The translations under genes were made by a program, and so were the position numbers. From Candidatus Bathyarchaeota archaeon (GTDB lineage Archaea > Thermoproteota > Bathyarchaeia > TCS64): DNA of 64,000 nucleotides. The notes under the pieces were generated by a model. That model saw only the letters and a list, made by a program, of their open reading frames with translations. It was not told the origin of the DNA and searched no databases. Where the stretch lies: contig JASLYX010000004.1 of NCBI GenBank assembly GCA_030739585.1, positions 62,001 through 126,000 on the forward strand. The letters run 5' to 3'. The first letter of the stretch is position 1. The number at the start of each line of letters is the position of its first letter. Positions 49,225 through 58,540 of this stretch are shown here, piece after piece.

Positions 49225-49299
49225 GGGCTCGTGGTCTAGTCAGGATAAGACGTCAGCTTGCGGAGCTGTTGGTCGTGGGTTCGAATCCCACCGAGCCCG
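49225..49299 (+). tRNA. tRNA-Arg (anticodon GCG)
   Basis: Cloverleaf: acceptor GGGCTCG / CGAGCCC with discriminator G; D-arm GTCT...AGAC; anticodon loop TTGCGGA (anticodon GCG); T-arm GTGGG TTCGAAT CCCAC. The outermost anticodon-stem pair is a T-T mismatch. A TATA box AAATTTATTTAG is at 49192-49203. No CCA is encoded. Its 3' third is duplicated at 50525. Confidence 0.92.
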
Positions 49300-49300
49300 C
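49269..49300 (+). repeat. attL: 32-bp direct repeat in the 3' end of tRNA-Arg
   Basis: Bases 49269-49300 recur exactly at 50525-50556. This is the 3' end of tRNA-Arg including the whole T-arm, a standard integration target. Confidence 0.8.
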
Positions 49301-49373
49301 TTTTCACTCATTCGGACCCTTTTCCACCATTGATAAAGGGTGTTAATACACACACATAGAGCGCCCGCGGTGT

Positions 49374-50186
49374 TCATGGTGCTAAATTATACCCCCGTCG
49401 GTGTCGCTTTGACCATCTCTTCCAACAGTTAATGCAAAGAGACTTCCCAATCGAATCGATTATCTCTCCACATCCACAGCACACGATCCCCTCAAGCATC
49501 GGGTTAGTCACATCGGGCAAATCCCGTTCTCTCATCCAACTTCCCGCCCTCGCCCACGCATTAGACCAATCAGGAGAAATAACAGGCGTGAATCCCTCTC
49601 TCTCAATCGCAAGGACGATCTCTTTCGCTTCCTCCAGCCACCTATATTGGCTAACAGGGTGAAAATCAATAATTAACGCTCTAAGAGAATCTGGAAAATT
49701 ATCCTCAATATGAAAATTATACTCCCCGCCCTCAACATCAATCTTCACGATGGTAGCATCCTTGATCGCATCAGAATATTTTACTGCGGGAACAGTAATC
49801 GCTTTCTTATTACTGAACGATAAAATGGTGCTATTCGTGACCCCTATACCCGACGAGACGTGTAATGTAGCTTCTTCTCTATCGTTTCCAACTATAGCTG
49901 CGTGTATTGGCTTGAAATTAGGAAGCTTCAACTTGGTACATATCTGATACGAGGAAGGAGTGGGCTCATACGCGATCACTTTTGATACAGGAAACCTGGC
50001 ACAGCGAATACTATACTGTCCCATATAGGCTCCAATATCGACTACATTATCAGAATAATGAAGAGGAATCGATCTACACTCCCTCATAGAAGGAATGAAC
50101 GGCTTTTCACCATCCTTAGTGACCATAAATAAACCACCCGGGACATCATTCGACCTAACATATCTATATTCTAAAACGGAAGACAA
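49374..50186 (-). CDS. FkbM-family SAM methyltransferase with C-terminal zinc ribbon
   Basis: 270 aa. SAM-binding motif VVDIGAYMGQYSIRCARFP and the FkbM motif IVKIDVEGGEYNFHIEDN, then a C-terminal CCGCGEIIDSIGKSLCINCW zinc ribbon not usual for the family. FkbM enzymes methylate sugar or peptide hydroxyls, often in surface glycan loci. It is the cargo gene of the tRNA-Arg island. The start is a TTG at 50186. Codon usage is more A/T-rich than the flanking chromosome. Confidence 0.85.
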   Translation of the reverse strand: MSSVLEYRYVRSNDVPGGLFMVTKDGEKPFIPSMRECRSIPLHYSDNVVDIGAYMGQYSIRCARFPVSKVIAYEPTPSSYQICTKLKLPNFKPIHAAIVGNDREEATLHVSSGIGVTNSTILSFSNKKAITVPAVKYSDAIKDATIVKIDVEGGEYNFHIEDNFPDSLRALIIDFHPVSQYRWLEEAKEIVLAIEREGFTPVISPDWSNAWARAGSWMRERDLPDVTNPMLEGIVCCGCGEIIDSIGKSLCINCWKRWSKRHRRGYNLAP

Positions 50187-50189
50187 TCT

Positions 50190-50342
50190 CTAATCCTCCC
50201 CAATTTCATACCCCAGATGAATGTGGCTGATAGGGTTACCAATATGTCTAGTCTTCTCCGCAATCTTCTGCTCCAAAAGCATCGCAACGCCTGAACATCC
50301 TCCTCGTCTTTCAAGTGAACTATAATCCTTCGGTAATCTCAT
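50190..50342 (-). CDS. Small island protein (50 aa), unknown
   Basis: ATG 50342 to TAG 50190. Starts MRLPKDYSSLERRGGCSGVA and ends HIHLGYEIGED. It overlaps the upstream truncated frame (TAATG) and sits 3 bp ahead of the FkbM start, so the three form a coupled unit. No family recognised. Confidence 0.4.
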   Translation of the reverse strand: MRLPKDYSSLERRGGCSGVAMLLEQKIAEKTRHIGNPISHIHLGYEIGED

Positions 50343-50485
50343 TAACACCTCTGGGAGTATCTGATGAAATACCTAAGTATAAGAATGGAAAGAGTGTAGC
50401 CGATATTGTAAGCTGGGAAAAATAAGGTTCCAAATCCCCATAGCACCCTAATCTTTGCGGGAACTCGTTTCTTATCAAATGCCAA
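50342..50485 (-). pseudogene. Truncated C-terminal frame next to attR, membrane-associated
   Basis: Frame of about 47 codons, LAFDKKRVPAKIRVLWGFG then FFPAYNIGYTLSILILRYFI, stop TAA. It looks like the C-terminal end of a membrane protein whose N-terminal part is missing because attR begins shortly upstream. Could also be a short gene from TTG 50485. Low certainty. Confidence 0.3.
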
Positions 50486-50524
50486 AGTGAAACAAAAAAG
50501 GGAAGGAGACGGGTGATATCTCCA

Positions 50525-50556
50525 TTGGTCGTGGGTTCGAATCCCACCGAGCCCGC
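50525..50556 (+). repeat. attR: 32-bp copy of the tRNA-Arg 3' end
   Basis: Exact copy of 49269-49300; here it is not part of a complete tRNA. Marks the right end of the island. The frame that runs through this copy is not a gene. Confidence 0.8.
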
Positions 50557-50718
50557 CATTTGCTAAATCCATGATATTTTTTCGACCCCGATTATAGTAA
50601 AGATATCTCAATACACGTTTCTATTAGGAAAGGAGGATTATAGATCCAAGAGCGCTATGAACTCAATATTTAACCTCAAGAGTCTGGGAAAAAAGCTGAT
50701 AATTATGGCTAGAGTTGG

Positions 50719-57404: not shown

Positions 57405-57519
57405 CTAGAAAAAAAGTTTTCGTTGATGTAAAATCGTTTATAGTATATAGGGTATTTAAAAAGAACTAAATACCGTCCCAACTTCAATTATAACGACCTA
57501 GATACAGGTAAGACCTTGA

Positions 57520-57879
57520 TCAATATGAATGAGACTCCAGCGCATGCTGAGACTTTTTTCTAGTCCAACGATCTTTATCTCTTGTAGCATATTTTTTCAT
57601 TACCTTCCCAAAACTGTCGTTAAGATCGATCTCATAATAATTAGCTAGACACACAAGACTAAACAAGATATCTGCGAGTTCCAATCCAATATCAGTATTT
57701 GTTTCTGAAGATTTCTTCTTTTTAATCTTTTCGAGACTATTTATTTCGCGAGCTAGTTCTCCTACCTCTTCAACGATACAAGCAAGCATTGAAAGAGGAG
57801 GCCAGTATCCCTCCTTAAACTGATTGATCCATGCATCGACGGTTTCTTGGATTTGATTAAGTTGGAGTTGTTTACCCAC
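57520..57879 (-). CDS. MazG-like nucleotide pyrophosphohydrolase
   Basis: 119 aa all-alpha NTP-PPase. LACIVEEVGELAREIN (EExxE) and LELADILFSLVCLANYYEIDL (ExxD) supply the Mg-binding residues. It hydrolyses NTPs or dNTPs to NMP and pyrophosphate, thought to clean damaged nucleotides or lower nucleotide levels. GTG 57879 start. Lysine-rich C-terminus. Monocistronic. Confidence 0.85.
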   Translation of the reverse strand: MGKQLQLNQIQETVDAWINQFKEGYWPPLSMLACIVEEVGELAREINSLEKIKKKKSSETNTDIGLELADILFSLVCLANYYEIDLNDSFGKVMKKYATRDKDRWTRKKSQHALESHSY

Positions 57880-58540
57880 GATTATCTCACAGATGAATGG
57901 AACTACAAGGAATAACCATATTTCATTTACTGTATTGGTTTTAACGTCTATATAGATAATCAGAATAGTAGAAATGAGAATTTGAAGAACTCGTTTTCAT
58001 TATCTAATTTTTAAGAGCCCTCATCGCTCGGTTGTTCAAGAAAAAAGATCACATGTTATTGCTAATCCTTGCTTTTTGAGTTAACGCCTCTAGTAGGAAG
58101 GTCTGTAAACGTTTCGGAGGATTCAGACGTTCTGGTGACAGTTACGGAATGGAAGGATATTCTGAGCGCTACACCTTGAAGAGAGATGTTTTTCAGTCAA
58201 ACTTGAAGAATGAGGTAACCGTTCACCATACGTTCCTTTGTGTTTGTTTATATTCATAAAGAAAACGGATGATATAAACTAAAACGGAACGAAGCAAGAT
58301 GGCTAGGCCAAATCCAAGGAGAACTTCGGTTAATTTCATAAAGTGTCATTCCACGATTCAATAGATCTCATAAAATGATAATCCTTAAGACTAAATTGAA
58401 AAACCAATCGTTCCCATACGGCCTCCAAAATAATCAATTAAACGTTAAATCCATATTATTAAATACATTAAAAAAATGAAGATTATTCTATTCATCAAAA
58501 CAATCGGAATTATCTGTGCCTTGTGTGCGCGCCTCGGGAC
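57880..58540. other. Intergenic, nothing recognised
   Basis: About 660 bp, A/T-rich, several stop codons in all frames. A GCGCGC motif lies at 58527. No RNA gene seen. Confidence 0.4.

Follow-up and report, generated by a model that had tools for sequence, protein, structure and literature searches.

The window analysed here, a stretch of 64,000 nt from the 1.69-Mb, 28-contig assembly of a Candidatus Bathyarchaeota member (G000), contains a tRNA-Arg(GCG) gene, identified with ARAGORN, whose 3' end is present twice. An exact 32-bp direct repeat, TTGGTCGTGGGTTCGAATCCCACCGAGCCCGC, occurs at 49269-49300 and at 50525-50556 with a spacing of 1256, and its left copy is formed by the last 32 bases of the tRNA gene. 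The repeat stops at the first C of the tRNA CCA, and the remaining CA is present only after the right copy. Even when up to 3 mismatches are allowed, these are the only two copies in the window genome, and an exact match over 32 bp is far beyond chance. The 1,224 bp between the repeats constitute an insert of approximately 1.26 kb whose sole gene encodes an FkbM-family methyltransferase; no integrase was found in the insert. Thus, the original prediction of exact repeats, one of them the tRNA 3' end, framing an integrase-less insert was borne out. Its description of the insert as A/T-rich also holds, with a GC content of 43.5% versus 49.3% for the remainder of the window, a value that is low rather than extreme (rank 49 of 620 same-size windows). 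The locus comprises the following features:

49225-49300, plus strand: tRNA-Arg(GCG) (ARAGORN), the integration target, with its 3' end restored by the insert
49269-49300, plus strand: left 32-bp repeat, an attL-like core (variable loop, T-arm, acceptor 3' strand and first C of CCA), exact direct repeat with two genome copies only
49301-49318, plus strand: cassette left end, TTTTCACTCATTCGGACC (family consensus TTTTCACTCAACCGGRCC), a motif that directly follows a tRNA-type acceptor end at other junctions
49374-50186, minus strand: FkbM-family methyltransferase of 270 aa with a TTG start and a Cys-rich C-terminal tail (PF05050, TIGR01444, dN/dS)
50187-50493, no strand assigned: conserved non-coding stretch upstream of the FkbM gene (full-length alignment with the G001 copy, L038; frames broken)
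50494-50524, plus strand: cassette right end (R motif), AAAAAAGGGAAGGAGACGGGTGATATCTCCA, aligned with 29 dispersed copies (model R1)
50525-50556, plus strand: right 32-bp repeat (exact direct repeat), an attR-like core representing the displaced tRNA 3' end, followed by the CA of the original CCA

Frames antisense to the core (window 50320-50611, minus strand) yield spurious proteins with GFEPTT and GGIRTHD stretches, and hypothetical proteins with such stretches in Bathyarchaeia annotations may be markers of core sites of this kind. Elsewhere in the window, an A+T-rich patch (57501-58500, 35% GC) surrounds a MazG-like frame at 57520-57879.

Matches to PF05050 (Methyltransf_21; E 2.2e-7, 31.6 bits versus a cut-off of 22.7) and to TIGR01444 (E 3e-17, 63.4 bits; cut-off 37.7) place the gene at 49374-50186 in the FkbM family. 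The gene product probably O-methylates a surface glycan or lipid. A sequence search of the PDB found no relative, and an AlphaFold model based on four sequences was uninformative (mean pLDDT 35). Beyond the matched FkbM domain, the protein carries the tail CCGCG...CINC (window 49374-49490, minus strand), which is kept in 4 of 4 copies and, in its sequence, resembles a zinc ribbon. The 340 bp upstream of the gene are well conserved relative to the copy in G001. A second gene coupled to FkbM, as originally predicted, was rejected, since the small reading frames in this region are unconserved and broken by indels relative to the G001 copy; the insert therefore holds one gene and a conserved non-coding stretch rather than two genes.

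The FkbM cassette was found in 4 of 201 genomes of the class Bathyarchaeia, three belonging to one genus and one to another, and in each it occupies a different context. The copies in G000 and G012, which represent different genera, share 90% DNA identity (dS 0.21) versus 69% identity for the ribosomal-protein genes of these genomes, and the most distant copy resides in G002, a member of the same genus as G000 (dS 1.2). As judged from sequence divergence, the cassette has been transferred across genera. The dN/dS values of FkbM range from 0.14 to 0.44, which argues that the protein is under purifying selection. The G012 copy (C202, L039 3100-4500) has neither cassette end and is flanked by a direct repeat of another kind, the 20-bp sequence GTGGGG(G)TTAAAATTTATACC. 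One copy, on contig C38 of G001, possesses the right end and lacks the T-arm. Virus cargo was considered and rejected; viral contigs contained neither the exact right-end core nor a relative of FkbM.

Comparison of the same tRNA-Arg(GCG) locus across relatives revealed that its occupancy varies. Nine members of the family and order (G003, G005, G008, G009, G014, G015, G021, G029 and G030) have an empty site, in which CCA lies directly after the tRNA. The site is filled in G000, G001 and G019, and in each case a left end lies directly behind GAGCCCGC; the sequence that follows the acceptor end and replaces CA is TTTTCACTCATTCGG in G000, TTTTCACTCAACCGG in G001 and TTTCATATTAAACCGG in G019. The cargo is FkbM in G000, a PAS_10 protein within a 764-bp unit in G001 and, in G019, an array that combines an EcKL/APH kinase with DUF4760 genes and a methyltransferase and contains additional core copies at +3779 and +4516. 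Because the site is empty or differently filled in relatives, tRNA-Arg(GCG) can be regarded as an integration site with interchangeable cargo, and this variable occupancy supports the mobility that had been anticipated for the insert. Two characteristics of tRNA-targeted genomic islands are seen here, variable presence at the same tRNA among relatives and a distal copy of the tRNA 3' end as a direct repeat; the integrase gene that autonomous islands usually carry is absent.

The right 32-bp repeat is directly preceded by a right end, A6-GGGAAGGAGACGGGTGATATCTCC. Relatives of this end were sought with a 73-nt consensus query and then with R1, a model of 57 positions built from 19 copies. The right-end family is present in 80 of 201 Bathyarchaeia genomes (R1, E 1e-4), and at E 0.01 R1 has matches in 22 of the 27 genomes of the family. 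The number of copies per genome reaches a maximum of 22 in G001, followed by G004 and G013 (16 each) and G002 (11), with 4 in the window genome. In most copies the T-arm GGGTTCGAATCCC comes next, and the sequence beyond it varies, being tRNA-Arg-type, tRNA-Leu-type, otherwise tRNA-like or unlike any tRNA. The T-arm alone does not drive the R1 matches, since 121 genomes of the class have none even though all of them possess tRNAs. An exact scan for the right-end motif in 84,980 species genomes returned only Candidatus Bathyarchaeota assemblies (five records), and the same scan of viral contigs returned no match; as the pattern is strict, these results reflect the specificity of the motif and not its full range. 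Units composed of the end plus T-arm occur at many places other than tRNA genes, which makes the island part of a dispersed family. The original prediction had regarded such an element as unusual in archaea, which it is, although it is not unique. It had also treated recurrence of the repeat at unrelated places as evidence against an island; the 32-bp repeat itself is confined to its two copies, whereas the end-plus-T-arm units are dispersed away from tRNA genes.

The left end is a separate element of the cassette. All six matches to the 18-nt left-end motif, with up to 3 mismatches, lie directly behind a tRNA-type acceptor end. The left end TTTTCACTCAACCGG directly follows CCCACCGAGCCCGC at intact tRNA-Arg genes and at several row junctions; at L094 3719 and L138 4669 it follows only the acceptor part, and the preceding sequence is unrelated. 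Two gene-less units (L038 3172-3268 and L094 3719-3815) consist of a left and a right end 43 bp apart, approximately 105 bp in total. The simplest reading of these ends is a circle in the order right end, core, left end that would recombine in the T-loop, first at tRNA genes and sometimes elsewhere.

Right ends are also arranged in rows. Within the family, 31 neighbour pairs lie within 4 kb of each other versus approximately 2 expected from the number of right ends, and in 29 of the 31 both members have the same orientation (p 2e-7). The median gap is 1.8 kb, and mostly one or two accessory genes lie between neighbours, including those for beta-lactamase (PF00144), GNAT, APH/EcKL kinases, methyltransferases, DUF4760 and PAS proteins. 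In a row in G132, three junctions are conserved over approximately 110 bp across the right end, core and left flank. Further islands were observed behind tRNA-Leu(TAG) (1.7 kb; L132 2876-4646, G013:C96) and tRNA-Leu(CAG) (2.2 kb; L096 3282-5550, G001:C50), each with a duplicate of the tRNA 3' part as its boundary. Within the window genome, two right ends of the same orientation (G000:C5:86304 and 89766; L086 10304-10349 and 13767-13823) flank a large Lhr-type helicase gene; synteny with relatives ends 127 bp before the first of them, and the helicase gene is mostly without a DNA match in six relatives. At G000:C8:31429 (L085 11400-11484), a right end-core-left end junction joins two units back to back.

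Several tyrosine recombinases were examined as candidates for the machinery. G004 possesses an integrase-bearing unit with a similar left end, in which the tyrosine integrase gene is convergent with, and approximately 26 bp from, tRNA-Arg(CCT), behind left-end-like sequence. This gene, on contig C16, is truncated by the end of its contig. Its closest NCBIfam model is archaeal XerA (79.7 bits, below the cut-off of 220), and XerA-like archaeal tyrosine recombinases (PMC8371274) are, by this resemblance, candidate machinery. Relatives of the G004 integrase adjoin cores in G010 and G150, both of them decayed, and a decayed relative of the tRNA-linked integrase is present on contig C20 of the window genome (L087 1661-2017). 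That small contig also contains a second copy of the tRNA-Leu(CAA) 3' end (L087 4499) and probably represents another tRNA-targeted element of the window genome. No matching core directly adjoins the longer tyrosine recombinases of the window genome, on C22 and C8; a right end-core-left end junction lies approximately 5 kb from the C8 recombinase (421 aa). The C8 integrase was rejected as the mover, as its homologue on C13 of G001 has no such site nearby. At the same tRNA-Arg locus in G001, on contig C45, an exact 24-bp core is followed by an integrase (L113 1108-2328) that is a candidate helper there. This integrase does not belong to the family adjoining left ends, and a search for the far end of its element found none. 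The C45 integrase region (L113 489-13347) begins 0.6 kb behind the exact 24-bp tRNA-Arg core, and after the integrase the proteins read as restriction-modification and other defence-like functions.

We favour, with a probability of about 0.6, the explanation that the insert is a non-autonomous cassette that a tyrosine recombinase provided in trans integrated into the tRNA 3' end in a site-specific manner, as part of a tRNA-anchored tandem accretion for which the integrases described above are only candidates. The circular form, recombination in trans and the identity of the tyrosine recombinase are what we infer from the sequences. In the proposed mechanism, the conserved ends of the cassette, of the TTTTCACTCAACCGG type on the left and the A6-GGGGAAAGAGACGGGAGATATCTCCA type on the right, would be connected in a circular form through a core that mimics a tRNA 3' half, and the recombinase would recombine this core and the tRNA-Arg(GCG) 3' end. 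Since the incoming cassette would supply its own acceptor end, the tRNA would remain functional and its previous 3' end would be shifted rightward; the shifted and supplied ends would together form the 32-bp repeats. Every insertion would place a fresh core after a right end, so that more cassettes could stack into same-orientation rows of one- or two-gene cassettes. The FkbM methyltransferase would be cargo kept by selection. Several observations count against the cassette reading: the right flank of the empty site in G003 matches that of G001 over only about 15 nt, numerous right ends are remote from tRNA genes, the G012 copy of FkbM has neither end and the C38 copy of G001 no T-arm, the integrase family adjoining left ends is decayed in G010, G150 and the window genome, and the C22 and C8 recombinases have no matching core directly beside them.

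The original prediction offered two origins, a satellite mobilised in trans or a deletion remnant. Under the latter, a larger integrative element or provirus in tRNA-Arg(GCG) would have lost its integrase and transfer genes, leaving an immobile cis-mobilizable piece (CIME) that retains the two att sites and a single useful gene. CIMEs are known to arise in this manner (PMC5704250), 15 of 31 Dehalococcoides ssrA islands have no integration module (PMC3146451), and the integrase-less insert and the decayed integrase relative on C20 are what such a loss could leave behind. We nevertheless consider it unlikely, since deletion gives no reason for a large number of different one-gene units to have matching ends: several genomes contain short one- or two-gene units that combine these ends with other cargo, and compact units of 0.1-2 kb would not result again and again from independent deletions. 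Moreover, the identity between both 32-bp cores has persisted, and the FkbM unit is found at four places with recent cross-genus identity. The shared ends with unrelated cargo, the variable locus and the four FkbM places make the satellite the better option, and deletion of a larger element is possible as the origin of the first ancestor.

It is more doubtful that the right end plus T-arm is a dispersed tRNA-derived repeat (MITE-, SINE- or terminator-like) and that the island arose through homologous recombination with the tRNA gene and not through a site-specific recombinase. The copies away from tRNA genes in many Bathyarchaeia, some of which lack the T-arm, the gene-less units and the two palindromes within the motif, GGAGATATCTCC and a GGGATTCGAATCCC-like sequence, would suit such a repeat. 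Independent insertions, however, would not match the orientation of their neighbours, a separate left-end motif after the acceptor, 0.04-1.2 kb away, is unexpected, and the right-end motif was rejected as a conserved structured RNA because RNAalifold gave 4 pairs and -0.8 kcal/mol. We consider a true integron-type cassette, with an attC site and an IntI integrase, highly improbable. Integrons are known in Archaea, including Thermoproteota (PMC9668308), and same-orientation sites clustered at spacings below 4 kb, with one or two accessory genes in between, are shared with their cassettes; yet the integrases near cores and ends score at most 49 bits against the integron-integrase model (cut-off 265), the aligned sites contain no attC-like long imperfect palindrome, the target is a tRNA 3' end, and no integrase-attI platform was seen. 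It is scarcely credible that the locus reflects an assembly or binning artefact or a chance repeat. Although the genome is a multi-contig assembly, both flanks and the insert lie inside one 155-kb contig, and independent assemblies show counterparts of the insert, its right end and the occupancy of the site.

Tycheposons of Prochlorococcus are likewise small cargo-carrying units at tRNA genes, many of which have no transfer genes of their own; they are usually larger than the Bathyarchaeia units and typically encode a tyrosine recombinase. The ssrA islands of Dehalococcoides are arranged in tandem behind one RNA gene with 20-bp direct repeats of its 3' end; approximately half have no integration module and are thought to be mobilised through their neighbours, and they carry accessory cargo (PMC3146451). 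The Bathyarchaeia units resemble them in tandem accretion behind an RNA gene, direct repeats of its 3' end and accessory cargo. They differ in consisting mostly of one or two genes, in having ends conserved beyond the repeat, in occurring also at other tRNA and non-tRNA places and in their archaeal host, whereas the Dehalococcoides target is a bacterial tmRNA with the serine recombinase DsiB encoded beside the site (PMC3146451). The insert is also like a CIME (PMC5704250) in that attL and attR are kept, integration and transfer genes are absent, and tandem stacking is possible. Unlike CIMEs, which are read as decayed ICEs or IMEs (PMC5704250), the units are compact, have both ends in common with one another, and recur with different cargo; no unit is traceable as an ICE or IME parent. 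As in integron cassettes, including archaeal ones (PMC9668308), short units of one or two genes follow one another in a single orientation with a conserved site between them, but IntI and an attC-like site between cassettes are both absent, the target is a tRNA 3' end, and the right-end motif, AAAAAAGGGGAAAGAGACGGGAGATATCTCC, is unrelated. The best reading of the arrangement is integron-like, yet not an integron. By analogy, the insert would work like a cis-mobilizable element at a tandem-accretion site, and we class it as a new form of integrase-less element targeted to tRNA genes.

Little is known of how genes are traded among the Bathyarchaeia, which are abundant and for the most part uncultured. 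We tentatively propose, in agreement with the sequence data, that they may possess a gene-cassette system of their own, in which one- or two-gene units with shared ends and a tRNA-3'-half core are captured first at tRNA genes and then stacked in the same orientation by a tyrosine recombinase supplied in trans. Such a system would be an archaeal analogue of the integron, with tRNA genes as its entry site and unrelated to IntI and attC. If the shared-end units do function as a cassette system, it can be recognised throughout the class by a searchable 57-nt signature. The system would explain the intergenus spread of single accessory genes without an integrase of their own, such as those for methyltransferases, beta-lactamase-family proteins, acetyltransferases and kinases, and it would represent a second, independent route to integron-like gene stacking.
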